From Porticoccaceae bacterium (GTDB lineage: Bacteria > Pseudomonadota > Gammaproteobacteria > Pseudomonadales > Porticoccaceae), in the NCBI GenBank assembly GCA_029238255.1, contig JAQWGK010000038.1, positions 1-46,033 on the forward strand: 46,033 bases of DNA, in the 5' to 3' direction. A model generated the notes under the pieces. The model was not told where the DNA came from, searched no databases, and worked only from the letters and a program-made list of their open reading frames with translations. Numbering within the stretch: the first letter of the stretch is position 1; the number at the start of each line of letters is the position of its first letter. This document shows, piece by piece, positions 20,369 through 44,599 of the stretch. Made by a program: the position numbers and the translations under genes.

Positions 20369-20371
20369 GCC

Positions 20372-21115: not shown

Positions 21116-21127
21116 GGAATTTATAGC

Positions 21128-21817: not shown

Positions 21818-21845
21818 CTTTTATTTTTAGAATAGGAATAAGATT

Positions 21846-23081: not shown

Positions 23082-23102
23082 GTCTAACAGGAGGAGTTAC
23101 TG

Positions 23103-23456
23103 ATGCCTTTATATGATTACAAATGCAATGACCATGGCGTGTTCACCGAACTCGCCACTATTGCCGGCCGCGAAAAGCCTGTTAACTGCCCCCAGTGTGG
23201 GGCAGCTTCTGCGCGAGTATTTGCTCTGTCACCGCAGATGATTGGTATGATGAAAGAGAAAAAGCAGGCCATGGAGCGCAATGAAAAAGCCCGTCATGAA
23301 CCATTAATCTCAACATTAGATCGCCGGCAAAATGACAAGCAGCACGCCAGTGATTGTGGTTGCAGTGGCGGCAGTGTGAAAAACTCCAAACTGTTCTATA
23401 CCGCAGAGGGAAACAAAATGTTTCCCTCAATGCGTCCCTGGATGATTAGTCACTAA
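23103..23456 (+). CDS. fmdB: FmdB-like zinc ribbon protein
   Basis: This 117-residue protein has the N-terminal MPLYDYKC start of FmdB proteins and a small zinc ribbon. The first metal pair is C8 and H11 (CNDH) where the family usually has CxxC; the second is C29 and C32 (CPQC). A second short Cys cluster, DCGC, lies near 97-100. FmdB was proposed as a regulator of formamidase expression, but its mechanism is not settled. GGAGGAG lies before the ATG. It is the last gene of the urt-fmd unit. Confidence 0.85.
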   Translation: MPLYDYKCNDHGVFTELATIAGREKPVNCPQCGAASARVFALSPQMIGMMKEKKQAMERNEKARHEPLISTLDRRQNDKQHASDCGCSGGSVKNSKLFYTAEGNKMFPSMRPWMISH

Positions 23457-23484
23457 AGTAGCTATTCATCATTCTGGCTAGAGA

Positions 23485-23515
23485 GAATGCTGTCAGCCTT
23501 AGGCTGCCAGCATTC
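23485..23515. terminator. Bidirectional hairpin between fmdB and ureG
   Basis: Two 14-base arms (23485-23498 and 23502-23515) pair with one mismatch around a TTA loop. It ends both converging operons. The ureG stop codon lies inside the loop and arm, so the hairpin includes the last codons of ureG. The T tracts are short on both sides. Confidence 0.75.
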
Positions 23516-24116
23516 CTTTATCAACAATAAAATCAATAATAGTCTGAAGACCCGTATGCTTGTGTAGGTTGGTAAATACATAGGGATTGGTCGGGCGCAT
23601 ACGCTTGGTATCGCTATCCATTATCTCCAGATTTGCACCGACATGGGGTGCCAGATCAATCTTGTTAATCACCAGCAGATCCGCTTTAGTAATCCCCGGC
23701 CCGCCTTTGCGCGGAATCTTTTCTCCCGCTGCAACATCGATTACATAGATGGTTAGATCCGCCAGTTCAGGACTAAAGGTCGCACTTAAATTATCGCCGC
23801 CACTTTCAATAAAAATTAAGTCTAGACCCTGATGGCGCTGACTCATCTCTTCGACCGCGGCCAGATTCATCGACGCATCTTCGCGAATTGCCGTGTGCGG
23901 ACAGCCACCGGTTTCAACACCGATAATACGGTCGGCCGCCAGTGCTTCAGCGCGGGTCAAAATAATCGCATCTTCCTGGGTGTAGATATCATTGGTCACC
24001 ACCGCCAAGTTGTACTGATCGCGCATGGTTTTGCACAGAGCTTCGAGCAGGGCGGTTTTGCCGGAACCGACCGGGCCGCCGACACCAATGCGCAATGGAG
24101 CAGTTGTATGATTCAT
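23499..24116 (-). CDS. ureG: Urease accessory GTPase UreG
   Basis: This 205-residue SIMIBI GTPase has the P loop GPVGSGKT at 14-21, the metal-binding CPH motif ([17 protein letters not shown]) and the NKID guanine motif. It delivers nickel and energy to the UreD-UreF-apourease complex. It is the last gene of the urease operon, 19 bases behind ureF, and AGGAAT stands before its ATG. Confidence 0.96.
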
Positions 24117-24135
24117 CGTAAATTCCTAATGTTGT

Positions 24136-24813
24136 TCAAGACCTGAAAAGTCTGGTGTATTGAGTTTCATGACGGCTGCTGGCAATTGCCAGCGCCGGTG
24201 TTGAGCTGCGTATATGGGCATCGGCTACCTGTTCAGCACGCGCGACAGCGGCGGGAATCTGTTCTGCCAGTTCGAGCATAATCTGCTGACCATGGGTCTG
24301 TCCGAGAGGAATAAGTTTGACCCCGGCGACCACATTATTATCCAGCCAACTCCAGCTGTAACCACAGCACAGTTGCTGGCAATTAATATTCCATTGGCTT
24401 GCGGCCAACGCTATACCCGTCAGCTGGCAACTGGCTATCGTAGTCGCCAGATGGGGTGGAATATCAATCCCCAGATTGGGCAGTAACTTTGCCAGTGCCG
24501 CACCCCGTTGACGCTCTTCCTTGCGCAGTTCCATGGTTTCCCGACAGGCGATCAGCCACTGACTCCAGCGCACCACGCTAGCCTCATCGGCACTGTTAAA
24601 CGCGTTTAACAGACGGAGTAAAATGGGTAACTCAAGGGTTGCAACACTGGCCGAGAGAACAGTCTCCAACCAGTCTTTTAAACTCTCGGTATCAGTGACC
24701 CACTGGGCTTCAATCGCCCACTCCAAACCCTGAGAGTAGGTAAAACCCCCGATCGGAAGAGATGGGCTGATCAGCTGAAATAGCCTCAGCTCAGAGAGCG
24801 AGTTTGCAGGCAT
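24136..24813 (-). CDS. ureF: Urease accessory protein UreF
   Basis: This 225-residue all-helical protein carries the family start LFQLISPSLPIGGFTYSQGLEWAI (about 11-34, given as landmark) and the C-terminal PALAIASSRHETQYTRLFRS tail that binds UreD and UreG. It controls GTPase timing during nickel loading. Its ATG overlaps the stop of the small membrane gene upstream (TAATG), so the two are coupled. Confidence 0.95.
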   Translation of the reverse strand: MPANSLSELRLFQLISPSLPIGGFTYSQGLEWAIEAQWVTDTESLKDWLETVLSASVATLELPILLRLLNAFNSADEASVVRWSQWLIACRETMELRKEERQRGAALAKLLPNLGIDIPPHLATTIASCQLTGIALAASQWNINCQQLCCGYSWSWLDNNVVAGVKLIPLGQTHGQQIMLELAEQIPAAVARAEQVADAHIRSSTPALAIASSRHETQYTRLFRS

Positions 24814-25028
24814 TATTTTTTAGTGGCGCCAGTCATTTTGGTTTTTTGTAAGCGCAGGTAAGCGGCAGAAAAAAGTACAGCGACAAGCGCGGCTAGACCC
24901 AGATGATCCGGAGCAGTGATAAAATGAAATGCCGAACTTATTGAGCCATCTGAGTTGTGGGCCTGAACTGTAGACTGCCCAACTAAAAAGAAGCCAATAA
25001 CAGTTAAACGTTTTAAAAAGTTGTTCAT
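24813..25028 (-). CDS. Miniature HupE/UreJ-like membrane protein
   Basis: The start at 25028 gives 71 residues and has AAGG 7 bases upstream; a longer frame from 25178 would run into ureE and is unlikely. It has a signal peptide ending at VQA, then a histidine (AHNSDG), the stretch FHFITAPDHLGLAAL, one membrane helix and a basic tail (KTKMTGATKK). HupE/UreJ nickel transporters begin the same way, with a His after the signal peptide and a HPxxGxDHL motif, but have six or more helices and about 190 residues. This protein keeps only the first module. It sits between ureE and ureF with coupled translation, so a nickel-related role is plausible but untested. Confidence 0.6.
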   Translation of the reverse strand: MNNFLKRLTVIGFFLVGQSTVQAHNSDGSISSAFHFITAPDHLGLAALVAVLFSAAYLRLQKTKMTGATKK

Positions 25029-25059
25029 TTTTTTGCCTTGTAAGTAATAAATAAATTTT

Positions 25060-25530
25060 TTAATGATGGTGGCCGTGGTTATGGCTATGGTTGGAGCTAT
25101 GACCAGCAGCACTTTTGTAAGCACCGGCTTCAGGTTCAAAAGGTGCCTCTTCAACCGCGACGGACAGTCCCAGTCCAATCACCATTTCATCGAGTACATG
25201 GTCGTGCTGGTAGCGCAGAAAACCAGTTTCAATCTGCAGGGGCACATGACGATTGCCAAGGTGATAACTGGCTCGTGCCAGCGCGTGAGGGCAGCTGCTA
25301 GTCACTGTTGAAACAGTTTCTGGGGCTGCACAAATTTGCACCACCAGACCCTCTTCACTCTCCACTAAATCACCACCGCGCAATATTTCTCCCCGAGGTA
25401 AGAACAGTCCCGCCTCGCGACCATCATCCAGAGTGACTTTGATACGGCTTTTGGTGCGCTCTCTAATTGGCAGACTCAGTGTTGTGCTGTGGGCTGCTGA
25501 TTTTTCTAAAATGCGAATAAAACGAATCAT
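25060..25530 (-). CDS. ureE: Urease nickel metallochaperone UreE
   Basis: This 156-residue protein has the UreE N-terminal domain (residues 1-75, [20 protein letters not shown]), a metal-binding C-terminal domain with the conserved His in LGNRHVPLQ (near 94) and a histidine-rich tail (eight His in the last 15 residues). It supplies nickel to UreG. It lies 52 bases after ureC. Confidence 0.95.
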
Positions 25531-25549
25531 AAATTTTTGCTTAAAATAA

Positions 25550-25591
25550 AGTTCTTAATGAGGAGTCCTTAATAAAGAGTTCTTAGAAAAG
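25550..25591. repeat. 14-nt degenerate tandem repeat at the ureC stop
   Basis: Three units follow each other: AGTTCTTAATGAGG (25550-25563), AGTCCTTAATAAAG (25564-25577) and AGTTCTTAGAAAAG (25578-25591). The third contains the ureC stop codon, so the array seems to have grown from the end of that gene. Confidence 0.6.
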
Positions 25592-27304
25592 AAAGTAGCG
25601 CTGCGCCATCGGCAACTCGGTCGCCGGCTCACAGACCAGCAGCTGACCATCAGCGCGAACCTCATAGGTCTGGGAATCCACGTCTATTTCCGGTTGATAA
25701 CTATTGCGCACCATATCTTTCTTGGTCACGTTGCGGCAGCCTTTCACCGTACCGATCAAACTCTGCAAGCCGAGCTGCTCAGGCACGCCGGCATCAACAG
25801 CAGCCGCGGATAAAAACAGCATTGAGGTATTGTTATTAGCTTTGCCCATCGCGCCAAACATAGAGCGATAGTGAACCGGTTGCGGTGTTGGAATCGACGC
25901 ATTGGGATCACCCATAGGGGCGGCAGCAATCATTCCGCCCTTGATAATGGTGGCCGGTTTGGTGCCAAAAAATGCCGGCTTCCACAGCACTAGATCCGCC
26001 AGTTTGCCGTTCTCAATAGAACCCACCTCATGGGCAATACCATGGGCAATGGCCGGGTTGATGGTGTACTTGGCGATATAGCGTTTAATTCGCTCGTTAT
26101 CATTTTCACTGCTACCTTCCGCTCCACAATCCTCAGCAAGAGGTCCACGCTGCACTTTCATCTTGTGAGCGGTCTGCCAGGTGCGCAGTACCACTTCGCC
26201 GACGCGACCCATCGCCTGAGAGTCCGAGGCAATCATTGAGAATGCACCCAGATCATGGAGAATATCTTCAGCGGCAATCGTCTCGCGACGAATCCGCGAT
26301 TCGGCAAAGGCCACATCCTCTGCAATATTCGGATCCAGATGATGGCAGACCATCAGCATATCCAGATGTTCATCGACAGTATTAATGGTGTAGGGGCGGG
26401 TCGGGTTAGTCGATGAGGGAAGTACATTGAGCTCGCCACAGGCCTTGATAATATCCGGCGCATGGCCGCCACCGGCACCCTCGGTGTGGTAGGTGTGAAT
26501 GGTTCTGCCATCGATGGCATCCAGTGTAGATTCCACAAAGCCCGACTCGTTGAGTGTGTCGGTGTGAATCGCCACCTGAATATCGGTCTCTTCGGCAATA
26601 TTTAAACATTCATTAATTGAAGCCGGCGTCGTGCCCCAGTCTTCGTGAAGTTTTAGACCCATAGCGCCCGCAGCAACCTGTTCACGGAGTGGTTCCGGCT
26701 GACTGGCATTACCTTTGCCCATCAGGCCAATATTCATCGGCAGTGTATCTGCCGCTTCTAACATACGGTGAATATTCCAGGGCCCGGGCGTGCAGGTGGT
26801 CGCATTGGTGCCAGTGGCTGGTCCTGTGCCGCCGCCGAGCATGGTGGTGACACCAGACATCAGTGCCTCATCAATTTGCTGGGGGCAGATAAAGTGAATA
26901 TGCGCATCCACACCACCAGCGGTAAGAATATGGCCCTCACCGGCAAGCACTTCAGTGCCAGCCCCAACCACAATGTCGACATTGCTCTGAGTGTCCGGAT
27001 TGCCGGCCTTGCCTATAGCGAAAATACGTCCATCTTTAATCCCCACATCGGCTTTAACTATGCCCCAGTGGTCGATAATTAATGCATTGGTAATCACCAG
27101 ATCGACAGTTTCGGCGCTGGGTCTCTGACTCTGCCCCATGCCGTCGCGAATCACTTTACCGCCGCCAAATTTAACCTCGTCGCCATACTCGGTGAAATCT
27201 TTTTCCACCTCTAGCCAGAGTTCGGTATCTGCCAGTCGCAGCTTGTCGCCGGTGGTTGGGCCGAACATTTCAGCATAGGCCTGTCTTGAAATTGATCCTG
27301 GCAT
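25583..27304 (-). CDS. ureC: Urease alpha subunit UreC
   Basis: This 573-residue protein is the catalytic subunit that hydrolyses urea to ammonia and carbamate. All active-site residues are present: H135 and H137 (DAHIHF), carbamylated K218 ([12 protein letters not shown]), H247, H273, D361, and flap residues C320-H321 (MVCHHLDP). The numbering is shifted by one from the Klebsiella enzyme. It starts 3 bases after ureB, with GGAG just upstream. The complete set of residues means a functional nickel enzyme. Confidence 0.98.
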
Positions 27305-29842: not shown

Positions 29843-31815
<1,973 letters not shown>

Positions 31816-31914
31816 TAAACGGTCCCTGTTAAGTGCTAATTGCCCGATTAGTATAGTCAAATCACCGCTGCAATCCCCTAAATGGTCTCAGTCGTCGCAT
31901 AAATGCCCCGTTAG

Positions 31915-31931
31915 TCTCAAATATAGTGAGA
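31915..31931. promoter_or_regulatory. Short inverted repeat upstream of the TonB receptor
   Basis: TCTCA and TGAGA are inverted with a 7-base spacer, 112 bases before the receptor start. The geometry is operator-like, but no regulator is known. Confidence 0.25.
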
Positions 31932-32043
31932 TGAATGGTTTATCTGGGGTAGTCTCTGGAGTGAAAGGCTCTGTTTCCGGCGCTATTGGCCATATAAAAA
32001 GAGTCAGAATAATAATTATTTTTTACCTTGGGGGTATAAATCG

Positions 32044-35043
32044 ATGTTTTTGAAGAAAAATGTTCTCTCTAGCAGTATTGCTGTAGCGTTAATTAGCGCC
32101 AGTGCACCTGCTTTTGCAAACGACGGCGTCATTCAGGAAGTTGTCGTTCAGGGTGGTCTTCGTGCTAGTTTGAAGGCAAATATGGATATCAAAAGAGACT
32201 CAGTAGGCGTTGTTGACGCTATCACTGCTGAAGACATGGGTAAGTTCCCGGATACCAACCTTGCAGAATCGCTCCAGCGTATCACTGGTGTATCTATCAG
32301 CCGTTCAAACGGTGAAGGTAGTCAGGTTACTGTTCGTGGTTTTGGTCCTGAGTACAACCTGGTAACTCTAAATGGTCGCCAGCTGCCTACTCACAATGGT
32401 ACCAACCGATCTTTTGACTTTGCTGATCTGGCCTCTGAAGGCATTTCTGCAGTTGAAGTTTACAAAACGGGTCAGGCTAACGTTCCTACCGGTGGTATCG
32501 GTTCTTCTATTAATATTATTACTTCACGCCCCCTCGAGAACCCCGGGTTTAAGAGCAGTGTTGGCGTTAAGTTAGTTGCTGATTCATCAGTAACTATTGG
32601 TGACGAAGAGCTGACGCCTGAATTCTCAGGTGTTTTCTCAAACACTTTCTTTGACGATACTCTTGGCGTCTCGCTGAGTGGTGTTGCTCAGAATCGTATA
32701 GGCGGTCAAGCCTCTGCTACTGTTGGCGGATGGAATACAACCACTGCTGACTCTTCAGAGTGGACGCGCAGAATTTCTGACGATGGTCACCTCAATATTG
32801 AAAACCTTCCTGAAGGTACGCTGCTATCCAAGCCTCAGAGCATGGCTTACAGCCTTTCTAACTTTGAGACAGATCGTGTAAACGGTATGTTGAATGTGCA
32901 GTGGGCTCCAAGTGAAACCATTACTGCAACTGTTGATTACGTTTACAGCTCAATGATTGTTGAGAGCCGCTACAACGATTTGGCTTCTTGGTTTAACGGT
33001 GGTAACAGAGACCGCGCCTCAAGCTGGGCTACTGTTGAAGACGGTAACTCTACTCCGTTGTTCTACACCGAAGAGGAAAAAGGGACTACTGACTTTACCA
33101 ATGGTGTTGGTTACAACAAAGATCGCAACAAGTCTAATTCAGCCGGTCTAAACATTGAGTGGCAGGCTGCTGATAACCTGGTTCTGGAACTTGATTACCA
33201 CGATTCAGTTTCGAAAAGATCAGGTATGGATCCACGCTCTGGTTCGATCACTATGGCCAGCTTCAACCGTCGCAACACCACAGCACGCTTTGGTGGTGAG
33301 ATGGGTATCCTGGATCTCGATCTGGGTACATTGGATGATGGTTCAGAACGTCCTCTCTATAAAGAAGACATGATTATCACTGGTAGCCAGTTCGGCAGTG
33401 GCCAGTCAGATATGCAGATTGAAGCTACAAGCTTATCTGGTACTTTTGACTTCTCTGAGTCTACAAGTGTTGATTTCGGTGTTGAGTTAAATGAAGTTAG
33501 CAACCGTTCAGTTGGTGCACTGGTTGAGAGTGGCACCTGGGGTGGTATTACTGATATCACTGGTGATCTGGTTGACGTACTGGATAGACGTTCTATGGCT
33601 GGTCAGTTTGATCAGGTTGCAAACGCCGATGATGAGAGCCTGCAGGTAGAGTTCTTTACTGCTAACCTTGAAGATCTTATCCATATCGCTGAAACAAATA
33701 TTGCTTCAGGTCGCTATACGCCTAACCCTAACCAGCAGAGCACTTTTGGTGAATGTGGAACGGCTTACTGTGATATTCAGGGCAAAAATGTTCCTTGGGA
33801 TTCAGATCTTCAGACGACTGAAGAGACAAAAGTTGCTTACTTCCAGTTGAATCACGCAACAGAATATAACGCTATGCCGATTAATGTTCGTGCGGGTCTG
33901 CGCTACGAAGAGACTGAAATCTCTTCTGCCGGTATTGTTCCCAAGTACGAAGGTGTTACCTGGACCAACGCTGCTAACGAATTTATGATCAGCGCGACAG
34001 AGCCACAGAATGTTGATGATACAGGTGAATACGATCTGCTATTACCTAATCTGGATTTCGATATCTCGGTAACTGACGATATGGTTCTGCGTGCCTCGGT
34101 GAGCAAGACAGTCACTCGTCCAAACTATGCACAGATTAAAGGTGGAACTACCCTGGGTGGTTTGAGCTTTAAAGGTCTGCAGGGTACTGGCGGAACAGAA
34201 GCCAGTGGTGGTAACCCGGGTCTTGAGCCAATTGAAGCAACTAACTTCGACCTCTCTGCTGAGTGGTACTACGGTGAAGAGAGCTACGTTTCTCTTGGTT
34301 ACTTCAAGAAAGACGTAAAGAACTTTATCGCTGCTGGTGAAGAGCGTCAGTCTGAGCGTTGGAACCTGCCACACCCAGCACTGGGTGATTTCTGGAAGCA
34401 GGCTGTAGTTGATGCTGCAGTTGATGGTGCAACCACAGAAGCGGAAGTATTTGACTGGATCAGAGACAACCGTGCGCCTTCTGCAGAGTGGAGCCTAAAC
34501 GGTGATCAGGTAACTATTAATGGTGTTGCTGGCGATCCGCTAGTACCTGTTGATGTTAAGACTGACGTCAACATGAACGATGCAGAAGTATCTGGTTGGT
34601 AATTTGCTGTTCAGCACAACTTCTCTGATACCGGTTACGGCATGATCGTTAACTACACAATGGCAGATGCCAATATAAGCTACGACAACAGCTTCACCAG
34701 TGGTGCACAGTTTGTTATCAACGGCCTCAGTGATTCAGCCAACTTTATCGCTTTCTATGATAAAGACGGTTTGCAGGCTCGAGTAGCTTACAACTGGAGA
34801 GATGATTTCCTCGCCGGTGTTGGCCAGCCACAGGGTACTTACACTAACCCAACTAACGTTCGCGCCTACGGTCAGTGGGACTTTAATGTCAGCTATGAAT
34901 ACGATGAAAACTTCACTGTATTTGTTGAAGGCCTTAACGTTACTGAGTCAGTGCCTAGAAACTACGGTCGTATCGAGAGCCAGGTACTGGGTGTTTACCA
35001 GGGTGGCGCACGCTACAACTTCGGTGCTCGCTATAAGTTCTAA
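32044..35043 (+). pseudogene. TonB-dependent receptor with an in-frame premature TAA
   Basis: The frame encodes a receptor with signal peptide (to about A25), TonB-box-like QEVVVQG (31-37), a plug (TAEDMGKFPDTNLAESLQRITGVS) and a 22-strand barrel of the kind used for carbohydrates in Caulobacter and relatives. It stops at TAA 34600-34602 after 852 residues, yet the same frame continues without any shift for 146 sense codons to 35043 and ends in GARYKF, the expected terminal strand with C-terminal Phe. The local sequence SGW-stop-FAVQHNF suggests a GAA (Glu) to TAA change. The 852-residue product lacks the last strands and should not assemble. Full length would be 999 codons. A sequencing error is possible. 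Confidence 0.85.
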
Positions 35044-35089
35044 GTTAGCCCTGAACAGGTAACACAACGTAAAAAGTAAGATGAAAACG

Positions 35090-35123
35090 GAAGCCGCTTA
35101 ACCTGTTAAGCGGCTTCTTTCTT
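35090..35123 (+). terminator. Rho-independent terminator of the TonB receptor
   Basis: GAAGCCGCTTAA and TTAAGCGGCTTC form a perfect 12-bp stem with loop CCTG, followed by T-rich sequence. It lies 46 bases after the second stop, which supports the region up to 35043 being the original gene end. Confidence 0.9.
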
Positions 35124-35282
35124 TCAGCAAATTGGAAAAACCCAAATCGCTCTCAAACCGTATTAATTAGAACGGGTTAAAGAGTCCCGATTAAAGATTG
35201 TAGCTATGGAATCTTCGCGCTATCCTAGGTTCAAAGAATCTATACAAGACTGCTCTGAAGTAGCCCTAATACCTACTAAAAG

Positions 35283-35342
35283 CCTAATAAAGGGCCTAAT
35301 AAAAAGCCTAATAAAAGGCCTAATAAAAGACCTAAAAAAATA
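35283..35342. repeat. 12-nt tandem repeat upstream of the first halogenase-like gene
   Basis: Four units of CCTAATAAA plus three variable purines (35283-35330) are followed by a fifth, degenerate unit to 35342. The array ends 9 bases before the ATG. It is open in the frame of that gene (Pro-Asn-Lys-X repeats) but has no start codon before the preceding in-frame TAA at 35277. Confidence 0.8.
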
Positions 35343-35351
35343 GCTGATAAA

Positions 35352-36941
35352 ATGAGTAAAAAAATAAGTGGACTTGTGATTGTGGGCGGGGGAACTGCCG
35401 GCTGGTTATCCGCCGGTGTGATCGCTGCCGAGCACGCTATTTCCCAAAATGCTAATCAAGAGCACGGTGACCAGCAGGACAATCAGTTTCAGCTAACCCT
35501 AATAGAATCCCCGGACATTAAAACCATCGGCGTCGGTGAGGGCACCTGGCCTTCCATGCGCACCACATTGAACAAGATGGGGCTCTCGGAAACGGATTTT
35601 ATTCGCGAGTGTACGGCCAGCTTTAAGCAGGGCACCGAATTTTCTGGTTGGACCACCGGTGAGAATGACAACTACACCCATCCTTTCACCGCACCTCAGG
35701 GATACAACGAGACCAATCTGGCACCTCACTGGCAGGAATTGCAGGGCAGACCCAGATTTGATCAGGCAGTTTCACATCAGTCAGTACTGTTCCCAGATTC
35801 ACGGGCACCAAAACAGATTTCAACCCCGGAATACGCTGGCACGGTTAACTACGGTTATCACCTAGATGCGGCCAAATTCGCCGAGTTCTTGCGCAAGCAC
35901 TGTGTCGAGAAGTTGGGGGTAAAACATATAAAAGCCAATGTAATTGCAGTGAACTCCGCCGAAAATGGCGATATTGCATCGGTTACCACAGATTCCAGCG
36001 GCGCTATTGAAGGGGATCTGTTTATCGACTGCAGTGGCTCCAGAGCCCTGTTGTTGGGAGAGCACTACAGAGTGCCCCTGCGCAGTAAAAAACAGTTCCT
36101 GTTTAACGATACTGCACTGGCGGCACAGGTTCCCTACGTCAATCCCGATGATCCGATTGCCTCCTGCACATTATCCACCGCCCAGACAGCGGGCTGGATC
36201 TGGGATATTGGCCTGCCTTCTAGGCGTGGAACCGGTCATGTCTATTCCAGCGCCCATAACAGCCAGGAAAATGCCACCGCCGAACTGCTCAGCTATATAG
36301 AGCGCACTGCCGGTGCCCAGGCAGCTGCAGACGCGGAACCGCGGAAAATTAATTTTGATCCCGGCCACCGCGCCGAGTTCTGGCACAAGAACTGTGTCGC
36401 CATCGGCATGTCCGCCGGATTTATTGAGCCCTTAGAAGCCTCCGCGCTGATTCTGGTCGAGCTGTCCTCCAATATGATTGCCGAACAGCTGCCAGCCAAC
36501 CGCGAGATGATGGACTTAGTGGCCAAGCGATTTAACGACAAGTTCTTATATCGCTGGGACCGTATTATCGATTTTCTCAAGCTGCACTATATTTTGAATC
36601 GTCGTCAGGATCAGTACTGGCGCGATCATCTGGATCCATCGTCAATCCCCGACAGCCTGCAAGAGCTTATCGCGCTGTGGAAATATCAGGGACCCTGGCA
36701 TCGAGATACCAACCATACCGATGAGATGTTCCCCTCGGCCAGTTTTCAGTATGTGCTCTACGGCATGAACTTCGAAACTAACCCCAGTACAACCATTCGC
36801 CGCTCGGATCGGTTGGGTCGGGAAGCCGCCGTAAACCTGTTCCAGAAAAATGCCAAGCAACGTCGTGAGCTCGAGATGGCAATGCCGACAAATCGCCAAC
36901 TAATTGAAAAAATTAATACCTATGGGCTGCAAAAAATATAG
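35352..36941 (+). CDS. Tryptophan halogenase-like flavoprotein, divergent motifs
   Basis: This 529-residue protein belongs to the flavin-dependent halogenase family (PF04820), with the FAD motif VGGGTAGW at 11-18, the GVGEGTWP block and the conserved lysine K92 (SFKQGTEF). Two signatures differ from true halogenases: the WxWxIP motif reads WIWDIGLP (282-289, Pro replaced by Gly) and the usual E-S-T-G loop reads E-A-S-A (E362). It may therefore be a monooxygenase or a halogenase of altered specificity. It is the first gene after the broken receptor and is probably co-transcribed with sapC. No clear ribosome site precedes the ATG. Confidence 0.8.
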   Translation: MSKKISGLVIVGGGTAGWLSAGVIAAEHAISQNANQEHGDQQDNQFQLTLIESPDIKTIGVGEGTWPSMRTTLNKMGLSETDFIRECTASFKQGTEFSGWTTGENDNYTHPFTAPQGYNETNLAPHWQELQGRPRFDQAVSHQSVLFPDSRAPKQISTPEYAGTVNYGYHLDAAKFAEFLRKHCVEKLGVKHIKANVIAVNSAENGDIASVTTDSSGAIEGDLFIDCSGSRALLLGEHYRVPLRSKKQFLFNDTALAAQVPYVNPDDPIASCTLSTAQTAGWIWDIGLPSRRGTGHVYSSAHNSQENATAELLSYIERTAGAQAAADAEPRKINFDPGHRAEFWHKNCVAIGMSAGFIEPLEASALILVELSSNMIAEQLPANREMMDLVAKRFNDKFLYRWDRIIDFLKLHYILNRRQDQYWRDHLDPSSIPDSLQELIALWKYQGPWHRDTNHTDEMFPSASFQYVLYGMNFETNPSTTIRRSDRLGREAAVNLFQKNAKQRRELEMAMPTNRQLIEKINTYGLQKI

Positions 36942-36995
36942 ATTTTTTATAGCCGTCACAGATTTATTTAAAGTATATATAACAAGGGTTACAGC

Positions 36996-37733
36996 ATGAG
37001 TAAATATTCACTTCTTAGTCAGTCAGAGCACGCAAAGCTAAGAGTTATCACCGAGCGTAGTGCCGACTATGGCGACAACCTGATGTACGCCATGACATTC
37101 CCTCTGGAGTTTAGGAATATCGAATCCTGCTACCCAATCTTCTTTGCCAAAGATGGTGAATCCGGACAATTTTATCCCTTGGCGCTATTTGGTTTTCAGC
37201 GCGATGAAAATCTCTACCTGAAAGGCAATGTCTGGGACGCTACCTACATGCCACTGATGGTTGAGAGAAATCCTTTTCTGATCGGCTTCCAACAGTCACC
37301 AGATGTAGAGAACGGCGAAAAGAGACCCGTGGTTTCTATCAATATTGAAAGTCCTCGAATCACTGAAATTGAAACTGAGGTTAAAAGTGAAGCACTGTTT
37401 ACCGATAGCGGTGAGCCCAGCGAGTACCTGCAGAAATCGATGGAGAATTTACAGACTATCCATCGCGGTCACGACCAGAACAAACAATTTATTGCCACGT
37501 TGCTAGAGCATGATCTACTGGAAGGCTTTAATCTTGATATCACCCTTAAGGATGGCTCCAACAATCGATTGGAGGGTTTTTATACCATCAATGAAGAAAA
37601 GCTCGCCGGCCTGCAGTCCGAGACATTGGGTAAGTTGCACGAGCAGGGCTTCCTGCAGGCGATCTATATGGTCGTCGCTTCTTTCTCCCAAGTCAGCGGT
37701 TTGATCGCTAAGAAAAATGCCAGTCTCGACTAA
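36996..37733 (+). CDS. SapC family protein
   Basis: This 245-residue protein matches the SapC family (PF07277), recognisable from HAKLRVI, the YPIFFAKD and YPLALFGFQRDENLY segments and the C-terminal LHEQGFLQAIYMVVASFSQV. It has no signal peptide and no membrane helices. Its name comes from a Campylobacter surface-layer locus, but its function is not established. In many gammaproteobacteria and Caulobacterales it lies beside TonB receptors, halogenase-like and cupin-8 genes, as here. Confidence 0.85.
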   Translation: MSKYSLLSQSEHAKLRVITERSADYGDNLMYAMTFPLEFRNIESCYPIFFAKDGESGQFYPLALFGFQRDENLYLKGNVWDATYMPLMVERNPFLIGFQQSPDVENGEKRPVVSINIESPRITEIETEVKSEALFTDSGEPSEYLQKSMENLQTIHRGHDQNKQFIATLLEHDLLEGFNLDITLKDGSNNRLEGFYTINEEKLAGLQSETLGKLHEQGFLQAIYMVVASFSQVSGLIAKKNASLD

Positions 37734-37768
37734 CCCTTCAATACCAAATAATAACGAGTGATTGAATA

Positions 37769-38782
37769 TTGCTAGAGATTAATCGCCAAATTAGAGAAGT
37801 CAGCGGCTGTCGACCCGACAGCCTCAGCGACGATATTCTCTATTCCAAAGAGCCTCTGGTACTGCGTGGTTTGACTGCGGACTGGCCGCTGGTCAAGGCG
37901 GCCGTGCAATCTCCGGAGCAGGCTGAGTCGTATATTTTACAGTACGACAGTGGTCAGCAGCTCACCGCCTACAGAGGCGAGCCGGACATTGATGGACGGA
38001 TATTTTACAACGCTGATTTCAGCGGATTTAACTTCGATAGAATCAGATTGCCACTGACCGAAGTGTTTGAAAATCTTCGCCAGTACAGCAGTGAAGCCCA
38101 GCCGCCAACCCTGTATGTGGGTTCGACCATGGTCGACAACTGGCTGCCGGAACTGCGCCGCGAGAATGATCTGGTATTGGAAGGCCATGATCCTCTGGTC
38201 AGTATCTGGATTGGCAACCGCAGCCGAATCGCCGCCCATTATGACTTTCCAACCAATATTGCCTGTTCAGTAGCCGGACGCAGACGCTTTACCCTGTTTC
38301 CCCCAGAGCAGTTGGAAAATCTTTATGTAGGGCCGATAGATTTCACCCCGGCGGGGCAGTCTATTAGTCTGGTCGACTTTGCCAATCCGGATTACGAAGC
38401 CTACCCGAAATTCCGCGAGGCACTCAAAGCGGCACAGGTCGTCGAGCTCGAGCCCGGCGATGCTATTTTGATCCCCAGCATGTGGTGGCACCATGTGGAG
38501 TCGCTGGATGATATGAATATATTGATCAACTACTGGTGGCGCAATACGCCTGCCTATATGGGTTCACCGGTCAATGTTTTACAGCACGCGATTATGGGTA
38601 TTCGCGATCTGCCGCCCGAGCAGCGCGAAGCTTGGCGAGCAGTTTTTGATCACTATGTATTTAATGCTGATGAAGAGAATTATCAGCATATGCCAGAACA
38701 GGCCAGAGGTGTTTTAAACCCATTGGATGAAACCGTGGCAAGGCAAATACACCAACTTTTATTAAGTAAATTTAAGCGCTAG
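37769..38782 (+). CDS. Cupin-8/JmjC-like 2-oxoglutarate oxygenase
   Basis: This 337-residue protein (TTG start) has the Fe(II)/2-oxoglutarate facial triad of the cupin-8 group: H157 and D159 (AAHYDFPTN) with H241 (IPSMWWHHVESL). The GRRRFTLFPPEQ segment near 170-181 holds the likely 2-oxoglutarate-binding strand. Relatives hydroxylate amino-acid side chains in proteins (FIH, JMJD5). It lies 35 bases after sapC and 32 before the second halogenase-like gene, probably in one operon. The substrate is unknown; a protein of the same cluster is a reasonable candidate. Confidence 0.85.
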   Translation: MLEINRQIREVSGCRPDSLSDDILYSKEPLVLRGLTADWPLVKAAVQSPEQAESYILQYDSGQQLTAYRGEPDIDGRIFYNADFSGFNFDRIRLPLTEVFENLRQYSSEAQPPTLYVGSTMVDNWLPELRRENDLVLEGHDPLVSIWIGNRSRIAAHYDFPTNIACSVAGRRRFTLFPPEQLENLYVGPIDFTPAGQSISLVDFANPDYEAYPKFREALKAAQVVELEPGDAILIPSMWWHHVESLDDMNILINYWWRNTPAYMGSPVNVLQHAIMGIRDLPPEQREAWRAVFDHYVFNADEENYQHMPEQARGVLNPLDETVARQIHQLLLSKFKR

Positions 38783-38814
38783 CGTTTATTGTAGAGAGTA
38801 TCGGAGAGACTATT

Positions 38815-40305
38815 TTGACAGCTCAAAAAGTAAGAAAAGTGGTTATCGTAGGTGGTGGAACAGCCGGTTGGGTGGCTGCCGCATCTGTGGCAAAGCTGTT
38901 GGGTAAAAACCTCGATATCTCCCTGATTGAATCTGATGAAATCGGCACCGTGGGTGTCGGCGAAGCCACCATCCCGACCCTAATCACCCTCCATCAATTG
39001 CTTAAAATTGATGAACGGGAATTTATGGCCGCCGTTCAGGGAACCTTTAAGCTAGGTATCTCTTTTGAAAACTGGAGAGATGTCGGCAAAGACTATATTC
39101 ACTCCTTTGGCTTTACCGGCAAAGACTGCTGGGCAGCGGGCTTTGTACACTTCTGGTTAAAGGCCAGAGCGCAGGGTAATACCGCCGATTTTGGCGAGTA
39201 CTGCACCGAGCTAATGGCCGCCAAAGCTAATAAATTCGCCGTATTTAAGCCCGATGGACTGAATTACGCCTACCATATGGATGCCAGTCTGTACGCCAAA
39301 TTTATGCGCAAGATCGCCGAGCAGCATGGCGCCAAACGTATTGAAGGAAAGATTGTCGAGGTGGGTACCAACGCCGATACCGGCTTTATCGAGCACGTGC
39401 AGTTAGCCTCCGGACAGAAAGTCGAAGGGGATCTATTTATCGACTGCAGTGGCTTCCGCGCCCTGTTGATCGGTGAAACCCTCAATACCGATTACGAAGA
39501 CTGGTCAAAATGGTTGCCCTGCGACAGTGCAATTGCCGTGCAGACCCGCTCAGTGGCTGAACCTATTCCCTACACCCGCTCAATCGCCAGAGATGCCGGT
39601 TGGCAGTGGCGTATTCCACTGCAGTCGCGAGTCGGCAATGGTCATGTGTTCTGCAGCAAGTATATTTCTGACGAGGAAGCGACCCAAACCCTGCTAAATA
39701 ATATTGAAGGGGAAGTTTTAACCGAGCCCCGCGTGATTAAATTCCGCACCGGTCAGCGCACCCAGCACTGGAATAAAAACTGTATTGCACTGGGTCTCGC
39801 CGGAGGCTTTGTCGAGCCGCTGGAATCCACCAGTATTCATATGGTGCAGAGCGGCATACTGCGCCTGTTGCGAATGTTCCCGTTTGAAGGGATCAACGAG
39901 CCCTATGTCAAAGAGTTCAATAAGCAGATGAGTGATGAATTCCACTTTATCCGCGACTTTATTGTTCTGCACTACCATGTCACCGAACGGGAAGACACCG
40001 AGTTTTGGCGCCACTGCAAAACCATGGAAATACCCGAAAGCCTGCAGCACCGTATCGATATGTTTAAACAGACCGGCAGTGTCTTCCACAAGATCGGCGA
40101 TCTGTTTGCCGAAAACTCCTGGACTCAGGTGATGTTGGGGCAGGGTTTAGTGCCTGAACAGCACCACCCGATTGTCGATATGATGAGTGACGATGAACTA
40201 AAAGCCTTTATGCACAGCATAAAATCATCGGTCGATCATGTGGTCGGTCAGTTGCCGAGCCATCAGGAATTTATTAGCAGATACTGCAAAGCAGCTTCTA
40301 TGTAG
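38815..40305 (+). CDS. Tryptophan halogenase family flavoprotein, near-canonical
   Basis: This 496-residue protein has the FAD motif VGGGTAGW (12-19), catalytic Lys K79 (GTFKLGISF), the halogenase signature WQWRIP (263-268) and E337 in EPLESTS, where the family norm is ESTG. It has the residues needed to make and guide hypohalous acid, apart from Gly to Ser in the halide loop. TTG start, with GGAG 8 bases upstream. It should use reduced flavin, oxygen and chloride or bromide; the substrate is unknown. It differs clearly from the divergent copy upstream. Confidence 0.87.
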   Translation: MTAQKVRKVVIVGGGTAGWVAAASVAKLLGKNLDISLIESDEIGTVGVGEATIPTLITLHQLLKIDEREFMAAVQGTFKLGISFENWRDVGKDYIHSFGFTGKDCWAAGFVHFWLKARAQGNTADFGEYCTELMAAKANKFAVFKPDGLNYAYHMDASLYAKFMRKIAEQHGAKRIEGKIVEVGTNADTGFIEHVQLASGQKVEGDLFIDCSGFRALLIGETLNTDYEDWSKWLPCDSAIAVQTRSVAEPIPYTRSIARDAGWQWRIPLQSRVGNGHVFCSKYISDEEATQTLLNNIEGEVLTEPRVIKFRTGQRTQHWNKNCIALGLAGGFVEPLESTSIHMVQSGILRLLRMFPFEGINEPYVKEFNKQMSDEFHFIRDFIVLHYHVTEREDTEFWRHCKTMEIPESLQHRIDMFKQTGSVFHKIGDLFAENSWTQVMLGQGLVPEQHHPIVDMMSDDELKAFMHSIKSSVDHVVGQLPSHQEFISRYCKAASM

Positions 40306-40320
40306 GCCTCTGAGCTTTAG

Positions 40321-40371
40321 GTAAGCACTTAAAGTAAGAACTTAAAGTAACCACTTAAAGTAAGCGCTTAC
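40321..40371. repeat. 13-nt tandem repeat between convergent genes
   Basis: GTAAGCACTTAAA (40321-40333), GTAAGAACTTAAA (40334-40346) and GTAACCACTTAAA (40347-40359) are followed by the palindrome GTAAGCGCTTAC (40360-40371). The array runs into the last codons of the minus-strand cupin gene, whose stop is at 40355-40357. Confidence 0.8.
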
Positions 40372-41389
40372 TTAAAAACCCCTTTAGGGCTTTCTGTTGC
40401 TCTTCACTGAGATCAGTCACCAGATCATTAAGGCTTGCGGGCAAGTGTTCCTGTGGATCATCACCGGTCTGAAAAACATAGTAATTAAAATACTGCCGCC
40501 AAGCCTCGCGCTTCGCCGGACTCAATTTGGCGATACTCAGCATACTGTGCATCATGCTGTCATTGGCCGAAGGGGTTCCCTGCGTCTGCCCACCCCACCA
40601 GTAATTAACCAGTAAATTCAGCGCCTCCAGCGACTCCACTCCATGCCACCAGAGCGCCGGAATATAGATCCCATCTCCCGGTTCCAAAACTCCCTGCAGG
40701 GCAACGGCCTCCGCCTGGGCATAGTTGGGAAACTGCTGCAGATCTGGCTGACGAATATCGACCATGCTCACCGGTACACCGGCGGGGGTACTCAGTGCCG
40801 GCCCCGGATAGAGATTATTGATTTGCTCCGGTGGATAAAGGGTAAATCGTCTGCGACCGGCCACTACAGCGGCAATATTGTCATGAATATCGTAATGGGG
40901 AGCGACCATCGCCCGATTGCCCAGCCACAGGGTTGGCGCAATGGAACTGTCTAACAAAGGCTGAGGATTTTGGGTTTCAAAATCATCCAGCGCATCGCGA
41001 ATAGTAATGGCCTGCAGCGCAATGGCATGGGGATTGGGTTGATCGACTAACTTTAACAGCTGCTCAAGAGCCGAACCCAACGTCGTCGACGCGCGGCTAA
41101 AGTTCATGGTCTGAAGATCGTCACCGTAAAAGAAGCGGCCATTGATCTCCGGATTACCCACCACTGCCGAGACTTTCTGCCCGCGATCCATGGTAGTTAA
41201 ATAATCCACAATTGCCTGAGGAGACTCTTTTCCCGCTTTGACCGCCGACCAGTCGCCAAAATGTGATTTGAGTAGCGCCGGTTTATTGAGCGGAACAATG
41301 TCATTCTCAAACTGTTCAGCAGTGACCTGATGCCAGACTGGAATCTCGAGCACAGATATCCCCTTAATGGTGTTTAAAGCTATAGCCAC
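40355..41389 (-). CDS. Second cupin-8/JmjC-like oxygenase
   Basis: This 344-residue protein is a paralogue of the plus-strand cupin-8 gene: H165 and D167 (APHYDIHDN), H249 (IPALWWHGVESL), and VAGRRRFTLYPPEQ near 176-189. It is convergent with the second halogenase-like gene and separated from it only by a tandem repeat. It should be a soluble Fe(II)/2-oxoglutarate hydroxylase. The two paralogues on opposite strands suggest two targets or separate control. Confidence 0.83.
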   Translation of the reverse strand: MAIALNTIKGISVLEIPVWHQVTAEQFENDIVPLNKPALLKSHFGDWSAVKAGKESPQAIVDYLTTMDRGQKVSAVVGNPEINGRFFYGDDLQTMNFSRASTTLGSALEQLLKLVDQPNPHAIALQAITIRDALDDFETQNPQPLLDSSIAPTLWLGNRAMVAPHYDIHDNIAAVVAGRRRFTLYPPEQINNLYPGPALSTPAGVPVSMVDIRQPDLQQFPNYAQAEAVALQGVLEPGDGIYIPALWWHGVESLEALNLLVNYWWGGQTQGTPSANDSMMHSMLSIAKLSPAKREAWRQYFNYYVFQTGDDPQEHLPASLNDLVTDLSEEQQKALKGFLSKRLL

Positions 41390-41444
41390 AGACTATAGCA
41401 CTGGCCTATTATTGGATAAATATTAAAAAAGCTGAATTATAAAT

Positions 41445-42746
41445 ATGTCCTCTCTGGAAAAGGTTTTAACCCTGCCCTGTGGCGCAGAAATCCCCAATCG
41501 TATCGCCAAAGCCGCAATGACCGAAGGCTTGGCCACCGCCAATGGTCTGCCCACTCCAGAACTGGAAAGACTCTATGGTCTGTGGAGTGACGGCGGTGCC
41601 GGTATGCTGCTGTCAGGCAATATTCAGGTCGACCGCGATCACCTCGAGCGTCCCGGCAATGTCATCGTCGATCGAGAGCCCGACACAGAGATGCAAACGG
41701 CACTGGCCAGCTGGGCAAAAGCTGCCACGCGTAATGGCAATCATTTCTGGGGCCAGATTAGTCATGCCGGCCGCCAGACACAGAAAATCATTAACCCCAA
41801 TCCCAAAGCGCCATCGGCAGTAAAGGTCAATCTGCCCGGCGGTCAATTTGGTCAGCCAGTGGCACTGACTATCAGCGAAATTGAAACTATTGTGGCGCGC
41901 TTTGGAATCTGCGCCGCGGCCTTAAAACAGGCAGGCTTTACCGGTGTTCAGGTACACGCCGCCCACGGTTATTTACTCTCCGAGTTTTTAAGTCCGCGCA
42001 GTAATCAGCGCACCGATAAATACGGCGGCTCGTTAGCCAATCGCGCCCGAGCACTTTTAGACTGCGTAGCAGAAGTGCGCGCTGCGGTGGGTGCAGAATT
42101 TCCAGTTGCGGTAAAACTTAATAGTGCAGATTTTCAAAAGGGCGGCTTTGGCTTTGAAGAGAGTTTGCAAGTTGCCCAGTGGTTGCAGGAAGCCGGTGTC
42201 GATCTGATTGAAATTTCCGGTGGTACCTACGAGCAACCCAAGTTATTGGGAATTGCCGGCATCGAAGAAGAGGAGCCGCAATCTATTCCCAAGCCGGCCT
42301 CCTCAACCGAGATACGCGAAGCCTATTTTGTCGACTTTGCGGTGGCCATGCGCGCCAAAGTATCTGTCCCGCTAATGGTTACCGGAGGCTTTCGCCAGCG
42401 CGCTGCCATGTTGCAGGCACTGGACAGTGGCAGTGCCGACCTGATTGGTTTAGGTCGCCCAATGTGTGTACTTACTGACGCGCCAGATCAGGTTATAAAA
42501 GGACTTGAAGTGCTGCCACGCTATGAAGACAGTCTCTCTCTATTTCCCGGTTGGCTGAGCTGGTTAACGAAAATTAAGTTCTTTAAAGCCCTCGCCGGTT
42601 TCTCGGTTCAGTACTGGTACTTCGGTCAGATAGATGCATTGGGTCGCAGCGGCAAATCCGATCCGGCACTGTCGGTATTCTCGGCGACCAAGCAGACTAT
42701 GAAGCAGGCCAATCAGTTGGCCAGTGCCTTAAAAGACAGTTCTTAA
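41445..42746 (+). CDS. Old Yellow Enzyme-family NADH:flavin oxidoreductase
   Basis: This 433-residue FMN barrel has the OYE block VHAAHGYLLSEFLSPRSNQR (about 168-187, substrate-binding His pair) followed by TDKYGGS and NRARALLD, and the C-terminal GLGRPM phosphate-binding motif. It probably reduces activated C=C bonds with NAD(P)H; the physiological substrate is not known. The C-terminal 60 residues are longer and more hydrophobic (WLSWLTKIKFFKALAGFSVQYWY) than in minimal OYEs, which suggests membrane contact. It is divergent from the cupin gene and almost abuts the convergent umuC. Confidence 0.85.
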   Translation: MSSLEKVLTLPCGAEIPNRIAKAAMTEGLATANGLPTPELERLYGLWSDGGAGMLLSGNIQVDRDHLERPGNVIVDREPDTEMQTALASWAKAATRNGNHFWGQISHAGRQTQKIINPNPKAPSAVKVNLPGGQFGQPVALTISEIETIVARFGICAAALKQAGFTGVQVHAAHGYLLSEFLSPRSNQRTDKYGGSLANRARALLDCVAEVRAAVGAEFPVAVKLNSADFQKGGFGFEESLQVAQWLQEAGVDLIEISGGTYEQPKLLGIAGIEEEEPQSIPKPASSTEIREAYFVDFAVAMRAKVSVPLMVTGGFRQRAAMLQALDSGSADLIGLGRPMCVLTDAPDQVIKGLEVLPRYEDSLSLFPGWLSWLTKIKFFKALAGFSVQYWYFGQIDALGRSGKSDPALSVFSATKQTMKQANQLASALKDSS

Positions 42747-42754
42747 GAAAGCAC

Positions 42755-44116
42755 TTATTTTACTTTTAAAATATCATTCCAATTGGTGGTGTAAGCGGGG
42801 GAGAGATGCTCCCGCTTCATGATCCAGTTTTTGGGTTGCGAACTATTAGCAACCCCCTGTCTGGCAAAAAACAGTTTGCTCTTGCCACTCCGATTAATTT
42901 TATCCAGTGTCGACATCAGTGCCTGGCTTTTGCTCCGCTCATGGCTTTTCCCCCGCTCAGGGCTTTCCCCCCGCTCAGGGCTGTTTCTACGCTCAGGGCT
43001 GTTTGAATCAGACACTTCCTGATCAAACAGGCTTGGCTGATAAACTCCGGGCTCATAAAAGTCAGATAACATAACCCCCGCTTTGGCGTACTGGTAGCCA
43101 TCGCGCCAGATACGCTCGAGAAGCCCCATCGCCTGATTGATTAGATCGCGGCTATCATCGCTGGGTAGTGATAGTTCAGCCGTAGCCGAATTGGCATACT
43201 GAGACTGATTGGCATTAAAAGGGCTGGTGCGAATAAAGACAGTGATAATTTTGGCATAGCGTTTTTCCTTTCGCAGTTTTTCTCCCGCCCGTGCACTGTG
43301 CCTGCAGATCGCTTCACCCATCTCCTGCAATGAGGTCACTCGCTCGCCAAACGAGCGACTACAGACAATCTGTTTCTTGGTCGGCGGCAACTCTTCAAGT
43401 TCCATACAGGATTCACCGTTCAATTCACGAACCGTACGCTCAACCACCACAGAAAACTGCTGACGAATATGTTTCGGATTGGCATTGGCCAAATCCAGAG
43501 CGCTGTTAATACCCATGTTCTGCAGACGAACGGCAAGGCGGCGACCAATCCCCCACACCTCATCGACCGGTAACAATGCCATCAGTCGCTGTTGTCGCTG
43601 AGGATCACTAAGGTCCACCACTCCCTGAGTGGCCGGATATTTTTTCGCCGCATGGTTGGCCAGTTTCGCCAAGGTCTTGGTAGGGGCAATACCGACACAG
43701 ACTGTAATACCCGTCCAATCGCCAATAATCTGTCGCACCTGTTGACCAAACAGATTATTGGAAAGCAATTTCTGGGTGCCGGTTAAATCGAGAAAGGCTT
43801 CATCGATAGAATATATTTCCACCCGCTGTGCCAACTCTTCGAGAGTGCGCATTACCCGCGCGGACATATCCGCATAGAGTGTGTAGTTGGAGGAGAACAC
43901 CGCAATATTGTGCTGACGCAGTTCATTGCGAATCTTAAAAATCGGCACCCCCATTTTAATCCCTAGCGCCTTGGCCTCTTTCGAGCGCGCCACCACGCAG
44001 CCATCATTATTGGATAGCACCACAAGGGGCCGGTGTTTTAGATCCGGCCTAAATAACTTTTCACAGCTGGCATAAAAATTATTGCAGTCGACAAGGGCAA
44101 AGGTGGGTTGGTGCAC
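42755..44116 (-). CDS. umuC: DNA polymerase V catalytic subunit UmuC
   Basis: This 453-residue Y-family polymerase has catalytic D10 (ALVDCNNFYASCE), D105 and E106 (YSIDEAF), a HhH region near 184-215 and the little-finger domain. The clamp-binding motif QPSLF is at 360-364. Directly after it comes a hexapeptide repeat (373-396) that is not part of the family. The usual length is near 425, and the repeat accounts for most of the excess. GTG start, 10 bases behind umuD. It carries out error-prone translesion synthesis with processed UmuD. Confidence 0.95.
   Translation of the reverse strand: MHQPTFALVDCNNFYASCEKLFRPDLKHRPLVVLSNNDGCVVARSKEAKALGIKMGVPIFKIRNELRQHNIAVFSSNYTLYADMSARVMRTLEELAQRVEIYSIDEAFLDLTGTQKLLSNNLFGQQVRQIIGDWTGITVCVGIAPTKTLAKLANHAAKKYPATQGVVDLSDPQRQQRLMALLPVDEVWGIGRRLAVRLQNMGINSALDLANANPKHIRQQFSVVVERTVRELNGESCMELEELPPTKKQIVCSRSFGERVTSLQEMGEAICRHSARAGEKLRKEKRYAKIITVFIRTSPFNANQSQYANSATAELSLPSDDSRDLINQAMGLLERIWRDGYQYAKAGVMLSDFYEPGVYQPSLFDQEVSDSNSPERRNSPERGESPERGKSHERSKSQALMSTLDKINRSGKSKLFFARQGVANSSQPKNWIMKREHLSPAYTTNWNDILKVK
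42929..43000 (-). repeat. 18-nt (six-residue) tandem repeat inside umuC
   Basis: Four units encode SPERRN, SPERGE, SPERGK and SHERSK (residues 373-396). The units stay in frame, are charged and probably disordered, and lie just after the clamp-binding motif. Confidence 0.85.
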
Positions 44117-44126
44117 GAATAGTCTG

Positions 44127-44573
44127 CTATTTATGTCTAATATTGCGTATCACATGGGTGACCACGCCAAAAATATCCAGCTCCGAACCCTCGGGAATAT
44201 CAATTGGCGAATAGGCTTTGTTTTTAGGCATCAGGCAGGTGCGCGGTCGCAGCTGCAATTCCTTAACGGTAAATTCCCCATGCAGTCCGGCAATTACAAT
44301 ATCTCCGTGAGCTGCCGGTATAGAGCGATCTATCACCAACATATCCTCCGCATAGATACCCGCATCAATCATCGAGTCACCCTGCACACGAACAAAGAAA
44401 GTCGCCGCCGGGCGCTTGATACAGTGTTCATTCAGGTCCAGTGACTGCTCGATATAGTCCTCCGCCGGCGACGGAAAACCCGCGGAAACGGCTTCGAGAA
44501 ATAGAGGTATATTGGCCGGATTATTTTTTATATGGACGGCGGTGCCGCCATGTCTTACTAATAAGACACTCAT
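44127..44573 (-). CDS. umuD: UmuD, SOS mutagenesis protein
   Basis: This 148-residue S24 (LexA-like) protein has the self-cleavage site A31-G32 (VSAGFPSPAEDY), catalytic S67 (GDSM) and K104 (FTVKEL). RecA-stimulated self-cleavage gives UmuD', the partner of UmuC. I chose the ATG at 44573 because GGGGAG lies 5 bases upstream; a TTG at 44588 would place that site inside the gene. A LexA box lies 26 bases upstream. Confidence 0.95.
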   Translation of the reverse strand: MSVLLVRHGGTAVHIKNNPANIPLFLEAVSAGFPSPAEDYIEQSLDLNEHCIKRPAATFFVRVQGDSMIDAGIYAEDMLVIDRSIPAAHGDIVIAGLHGEFTVKELQLRPRTCLMPKNKAYSPIDIPEGSELDIFGVVTHVIRNIRHK

Positions 44574-44599
44574 AGAATCTCCCCACAAGAATCGTTCTA

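Follow-up and report, generated by a model that had tools for sequence, protein, structure and literature searches.

A 46,033-nucleotide contig of the Porticoccaceae bacterium assembly GCA_029238255.1 (JAQWGK010000038.1; the whole contig is hereafter called the window) carries a locus at positions 32044-41389 that encodes a TonB-dependent receptor of the TIGR01782 type, two PF04820 flavoproteins (Hal1 and Hal2), a SapC family protein, and two Cupin_8 oxygenases. We propose, with a probability of about 0.45, that the partner genes form a cassette that modifies the precursor of the receptor by oxidation or halogenation, with SapC as an adaptor; the substrate, the chemistry, the expression ratio, and the role of SapC are what we infer. 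Profile searches of the window (Pfam and TIGR scores) recovered every gene family called in a first-pass annotation made from the sequence alone, each where that annotation had put it. The new details are a terminator-like hairpin between the receptor and enzyme genes, a confident structural model of SapC without a match among solved structures, and an in-frame stop codon in the receptor gene.

The host assembly is SAR92-like, 2.21 Mb in size, and 98.31% complete, and the window is one of its 79 contigs. All genomic matches (E-value threshold of 0.001) to PF04820 (2/2), the SapC family PF07277 (1/1), and the Cupin_8 family PF13621 (2/2) fall in this single locus, and no copy of any of the three was found elsewhere in the assembly at that threshold. 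Since all five partner-family matches in the genome sit in one locus, their clustering is beyond chance. The plug domain of TonB receptors has 22 matches in the same genome, one of them in the locus.

Linkage to receptors was examined in 56 genomes including the host's own (35 from the same genus and 21 from the same order), which were searched for the four protein families, counting neighbours within 10 kb. All 41 SapC and all 43 Cupin_8 matches were used, as were 68 of the 96 PF04820 matches, the remainder being 27 that scored below 60 bits and one that is the second half of a broken gene. A receptor was located near 60 of the 68 halogenase-like genes, 37 of the 43 cupin genes, and 31 of the 41 SapC genes. 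The first-pass annotation had proposed testing whether PF04820, PF07277, and PF13621 co-occur with TonB receptors, and in these 56 genomes they do. Of the receptor matches, 71 were used, namely one fragment and those that scored above the cut-off of 310 bits; because weaker and unlisted matches were set aside, any count of genes that are not near a receptor is an upper bound.

Receptor matches longer than 2 kb (n = 69) included 31 without any partner. Two Hal genes, SapC, and one cupin gene accompany 14 receptors, and the same set plus a second cupin gene accompanies 7. A single Hal gene alone was seen with five receptors and two Hal genes with SapC were seen with three, while a lone cupin gene, SapC with a cupin gene, and one Hal gene with SapC and two cupin genes were found twice each; three further sets occurred once. 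The receptor is the hub, common to all partner sets, and we favour it as the target because it is the constant partner among variable ones. A quick tree built from 75 receptors requires six changes (gains or losses) in the presence of a Hal partner, five of these being forced by supported branches; the partner-free receptors in this tree come only from the 56 genomes, and the window and locus L216 were labelled by hand. One receptor subclade has a cupin alone in L188 (G020:C2) and L189 (G025:C28) and is partner-free in the host's own genome (L180, G000:C50).

Hal1 (35352-36941, forward strand) is flavin-dependent halogenase-like (PF04820, 386 bits against a cut-off of 21), and its nearest solved relatives are 2pyx (E = 3.1e-177), then 9ltb and 9lu2. 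Hal2 (38815-40305, forward strand; PF04820, 642 bits) is a flavin-dependent halogenase of the Xcc4156/BrvH type, with 6y1w/Xcc4156 (E = 7.4e-204), then 9luq and BrvH (6frl; E = 2.3e-138), as its nearest solved relatives. We surveyed motifs in 104 distinct homologues of 440-620 residues from the loci of relatives (55 Hal1-like and 49 Hal2-like, both window proteins included). The catalytic lysine and glutamate, which are Lys79 and Glu337 in Hal2, are invariant (104/104). Hal2 has the WxWxIP motif, the proline of which is kept in 48 of the 49 proteins in its group. Hal1 has WxWxIG instead, and none of the 55 members of its group has the proline (glycine in 48, alanine in 5, and aspartate in 2).

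The first cupin (37769-38782, forward strand; PF13621, 242 bits) is a JmjC-like Fe(II)/2-oxoglutarate oxygenase, and its best solved relative is FIH (E = 2.2e-22 over residues 149-263). The second (40355-41389, reverse strand; PF13621, 205 bits) is convergent with the rest of the locus and 36% identical to the first. The HxD...H iron ligands are present in 48 of 48 cupin homologues (37 of type 1 and 11 of type 2). Catalytic residues are thus kept in both of the oxygen-dependent enzyme types that the first-pass annotation had named. In several relatives, a DUF6445 gene (PF20043) adjoins the cassette; two such genes were confirmed by scan (L012:13362-14102 and L163:6886-7602) and the others were recognised by eye. 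Nine aligned DUF6445 members have an HxD motif, a later histidine, and an arginine in common, and this combination is a pattern of 2-oxoglutarate oxygenases. DUF6445 matches occur in 6 of the 56 genomes (5 above the cut-off), and a profile search found none in the window's own genome.

SapC (36996-37733, forward strand) matches PF07277 with 223.7 bits against a cut-off of 28.9. An AlphaFold2 model built from 57 aligned homologues has a mean predicted local distance difference test score (pLDDT) of 96.0 and a predicted template modelling score (pTM) of 0.89, and a Foldseek search with this model against solved structures returned nothing at E = 0.001 (best E = 0.088). E38, N72, P86, P93, F135, and S229 are invariant, with no obvious metal site. 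We infer that SapC is an adaptor or chaperone. Of 397 genomes sampled across the phylum, 139 have SapC, as does one of 14 named controls (Caulobacter). In a quick tree built from 89 SapC proteins, 30 of the 36 receptor-linked sequences, including that of the window, form one branch with a Shimodaira-Hasegawa-like approximate likelihood ratio test (SH-aLRT) support of 100; L135, L141, L145, L162, and two sequences of L167 are outside it, and at least two changes of the receptor-linked label are forced. We also examined a wider sample of 60 SapC loci, one per genome, hand-picked from the matches listed on longer contigs, using models that were themselves built from those loci. In this sample, all 13 receptor-linked loci also contain a halogenase-like gene. 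Two papers that contain the name SapC deal with a peptide-transport permease and with a clay.

The genes of the cassette are closely spaced, with a median intergenic gap of 22.5 bp, and the gap that follows the receptor has a median of 177 bp. In the window, this gap contains a hairpin resembling an intrinsic terminator (35089-35118, forward strand) with a 13-pair stem, a loop of 4, and a T-rich tail (folding z-score of -5.2; 0 of 200 shuffles equally stable). A terminator-like hairpin is present in the receptor/enzyme gap in 26 of 43 loci, compared with 0-6 in ten dinucleotide-shuffled sets. On the opposite strand the count is 21 of 43, in keeping with the near-symmetry of such hairpins, and the hairpin sequences vary between lineages. 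Terminator-like sites in the region overall number 12 versus 10.1 in shuffles, and there is no excess of promoter-like sites in 31700-41500 (9 versus 11.5 in shuffles). The hairpin fits an arrangement in which the receptor is plentiful and the enzymes are scarce, as expected if they act catalytically in its maturation; separate promoters for the receptor and the enzymes are equally possible. An A+T-rich short tandem repeat (35268-35366, forward strand) lies at the start of the Hal1 gene, where Tandem Repeats Finder reports a period of 12 and 5.8 copies at 35272-35340.

In the mechanism that we propose, the gene for a sugar-type TonB receptor would carry its own maturation cassette, and a terminator behind the receptor gene, with limited read-through or a separate promoter, would keep enzyme amounts low. 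Hal1, Hal2, SapC, and the cupin would act in the cytoplasm on the receptor precursor before its export by Sec. The enzymes look cytoplasmic, as no signal peptide was seen by eye. The halogenase-like enzymes, with open active sites, may brominate or hydroxylate the indole side chains of tryptophans, and the cupin may hydroxylate another side chain, for which the family suggests asparagine, aspartate, histidine, arginine, or lysine as candidates. SapC would hold or present the export-bound chain, and the modification could tune ligand binding, stability, or resistance to phages or bacteriocins.

Several results weigh against modification of the receptor. In the 56 genomes, no used receptor lies near 8 of the 68 halogenase-like genes, 6 of the 43 cupin genes, and 10 of the 41 SapC genes, some of which are on short contigs; five of the eight halogenase-like genes (two in G031, two in G033, and one in G014) have cassette members adjacent on contigs of about 4-15 kb. 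A receptor was found within 8 kb in only 13 of the 60 loci of the wider SapC sample, and 17 of 43 loci lack a hairpin in the receptor/enzyme gap. Halogenation in vivo is uncertain because the canonical glycine of the halide site is mostly replaced: an S/T-G site with glycine at its second position was found in 3 of 49 proteins of the Hal2 group, 4 of 55 of the Hal1 group, and neither window protein, the usual replacement being serine in the Hal2 group (45/49) and alanine in the Hal1 group (50/55). Scores against the model for the peptide hydroxylase QhpG (NF049967) are 35.7 bits for Hal1 and 22.7 bits for Hal2, below its equivalog cut-off of 240. Among 75 aligned receptors (40 with a Hal partner and 31 partner-free), no residue tracks the presence of Hal beyond a phylogenetic null of 400 label simulations on the tree (p = 0.43; p = 0.21 for any partner). 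Tryptophan content is likewise similar in receptors with Hal and without partners (1.32% versus 1.23%, p = 0.21), and tryptophan columns 354, 366, 678, and 956 are inconsistent in direction across five independent pairs, which are too few to reach p = 0.05. With no conserved residue tracking the cassette, either non-conserved loop residues are the target or the enzymes act on something other than the receptor, and we hold our confidence at 0.45 on account of this null result. Two candidate signals were set aside. Thr 727 (numbered in the L006 frame, within SKTVTRP), present in 36 of 40 receptors with Hal and 2 of 31 partner-free receptors, was rejected because simulated labels often equal it, and a signal-peptide motif (23/40 versus 7/31) was not used as it was devised post hoc and is uncorrected for kinship.

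The alternative that survives best, which we nevertheless consider improbable, is that the enzymes modify some other exported protein of the uptake system, such as a lipoprotein that binds glycans at the cell surface, a hydrolase, or SapC itself. In 12 of the 60 loci of the wider sample, SapC adjoins an open frame of more than 1900 residues (a mechanical count, in which L103 may be spurious), and 35 loci have neither a receptor nor such a frame. One of these giant frames, in L105, contains RTX repeats, and behind it come HlyD, a PqqD match below the threshold, and a SecA-like gene. The SapC family may thus serve exported proteins more generally. A halogenase-like gene is also present in two of the 12 giant-frame loci; in L128 and L132, SapC lies beside a frame some 3000 residues long, a halogenase-like gene is located within a few kb, and there is no TonB receptor. 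SapC is, however, missing from the sets in which a receptor is accompanied by Hal alone or by a cupin alone, and hence it is not a needed substrate. An unsystematic comparison of the receptor and Hal loci L166, L168, L170, and L173 revealed no further common gene except hydrolases.

The first-pass annotation had offered two targets, the receptor or the imported ligand. The former is the one that we favour as the constant partner, and the latter is disfavoured by the variety of chemically different, non-aromatic sugars with which the cassette is associated. Action on the ligand, or on an aromatic group attached to it, gains from the co-location of the enzymes and receptor with catabolic genes in relatives, and some polysaccharides bear phenolic esters. 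A receptor and cassette are found beside GH3 (L117, L119, L133, L147, and L163), GH1 (L119), and GH20 (L135 and L145), together with a kinase-family gene in L135 and Nag-like genes recognised by eye, and receptor and Hal pairs adjoin GH97, cyclomaltodextrinase, and GH31 (L166 and L168). Plasmids provide four annotated contexts from five records examined, out of 38 with a SapC match. The gene order is receptor-SapC-cupin-halogenase-GH16-LacI-MFS-GH3 in Sphingobium sp. RAC03, and receptor-SapC-cupin-halogenase with no hydrolase listed as adjacent in Sphingomonas parapaucimobilis; receptor-halogenase-SapC is accompanied by beta-galactosidase and agarase in Catenovulum adriaticum and by alpha- and beta-galactosidase in Pseudoalteromonas nigrifaciens. 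Flavin halogenases require electron-rich aromatic substrates. Given that requirement and the beta-glucan, chitin, alpha-glucan, and galactoside contexts of the same enzymes, a single chemistry on these sugars is unlikely. The apparently cytoplasmic location of the enzymes also argues against the ligand, which we regard as a distinctly unlikely target.

Equally unlikely is that this copy of the system is decaying, with a dead receptor and enzymes that either are remnants or work on a different receptor in trans. The receptor gene (32044-35043, forward strand; Plug and TonB barrel domains in addition to TIGR01782) was called correctly in family and position by the first-pass annotation, which overlooked that it is interrupted by an in-frame TAA (34600-34602) at residue 853 of 999, after which the frame continues unchanged to 35043. 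The part before the stop scores 450.3 bits against TIGR01782, exceeding the curated cut-off of 310, and the part after it 101 bits; read through, the gene scores 566.6 bits in a match containing the one TAA. The frame is unbroken in the near relatives L006 and L010, and the uninterrupted L006 receptor is identical at 844 of 852 residues before the stop and 144 of 146 after it. This near-identity behind the stop suggests that the interruption arose very recently, represents a strain variant, or stems from misassembly. Hal1, Hal2, SapC, and both cupins are equal in length to their L006 counterparts, which also speaks against decay. On the other side, L010 (P_MB232) has a broken hal2, split into two overlapping frames (11808-13305), and a shorter second cupin (13514-14344), both of which may be sequencing errors. 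Least likely is that the cassette yields a small halogenated product, an indole or a peptide, for uptake by the receptor: many solved PF04820 relatives are named as metabolite (tryptophan) halogenases, but no scaffold-forming biosynthetic family is present among the 20 window proteins scanned, and the nearest studied enzymes do not accept free tryptophan (PMC7336383).

The nearest named records to the window's SapC are from metagenome-assembled genomes, namely the uncultured Pseudomonadales X_MB111 (95%) and P_MB232 (93%), with records from Porticoccaceae and the SAR92 clade at 56-57%. Such bacteria are marine, and the host is probably marine as well. The locus is flanked in the window by genes for an acetoacetate-CoA ligase and a flavin mononucleotide (FMN) oxidoreductase. 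The host genome has four GH16 matches; one lies on contig C50, about 1.8 kb away from another receptor that has no partner genes (L180). Elsewhere in the window, the stretch 16951-27304 encodes ABC transporter components, among them a binding protein of the amide/urea type, as well as an acetamidase/formamidase and the alpha subunit of a urease, and two large open frames (2307-5771, 1154 aa; 9448-11283, 611 aa) have no Pfam match at E = 0.001. A UmuC-like frame (identified by eye) adjoins a peptidase S24 gene at 42755-44588; in L006 and L010, too, the cassette is flanked by frames with the same start and size.

A broader generalisation, which we hold more tentatively than modification of the receptor in this locus, is that Proteobacteria possess a widespread, undescribed system in which sugar TonB receptors would be covalently halogenated, hydroxylated, or both in the cytoplasm by a dedicated, exchangeable set of oxygenases (two flavin types, JmjC-like cupins, and, in some lineages, DUF6445). 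SapC, for the fold of which no solved match was found, would be the cytoplasmic adaptor of this system and would act for giant exported proteins as well. If true, large groups of orphan "tryptophan halogenases" and JmjC-like cupins would gain natural substrates, the function of SapC would be defined, and bacteria would chemically edit their own carbohydrate-uptake receptors; mass shifts of +16 or of bromine or chlorine are predicted on the receptor. Searches by title and passage, with subscription papers and preprints mostly outside their scope, found no literature on the function of the gene set among the titles listed, and the main text of PMC8269204 mentions neither TonB nor SapC. For halogenase transcripts of phage and Colwellia, a role in virus-host receptor interactions has been guessed (PMC11337851).

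The proposed system resembles several known ones in part. Campylobacter fetus SapC, from the surface-layer region, presumably gave PF07277 its name. It belongs to the same Pfam family, some members of which adjoin giant open frames, but the 30 of 36 receptor-linked SapC sequences form a separate branch. The cupins have the cupin domain and HxD...H ligands of FIH/JmjC-type protein hydroxylases, but only about 115 of 337 cupin residues can be aligned with FIH. Like the carbohydrate utilisation (CUT) loci described in PMC1790865, receptors in relatives adjoin LacI regulators, sugar permeases (by eye), and hydrolases. The main text of that paper, in contrast, contains neither the word halogenase nor SapC, and in the window no hydrolase, sugar permease, or regulator of the kind that marks a CUT locus was found beside the receptor. 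QhpG has a flavin-halogenase-like structure and hydroxylates a peptidyl tryptophan in the cytoplasm before export (PMC7876137). Its model is the sole NCBIfam match of Hal1, far under the cut-off, and the protein on which QhpG works is a small cross-linked subunit rather than a receptor. Hal2 is of the same type as BrvH and Xcc4156. The main texts on these two enzymes do not mention TonB (PMC5945002, PMC7336383). Hal2 aligns with 6y1w without gaps around two short substrate loops, and it has serine at the position of the halide-site glycine, as does BrvH; Xcc4156 has asparagine. Serine is also reported for two Xanthomonas enzymes (PMC7336383), BrvH and Xcc4156 have open substrate sites and are active on indoles, free tryptophan not being accepted (PMC5945002, PMC7336383), and BrvH shares the paired arrangement, with a second halogenase gene adjoining its own (PMC5945002). 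The authors of both studies proposed that the substrate is a peptide (PMC5945002, PMC7336383).

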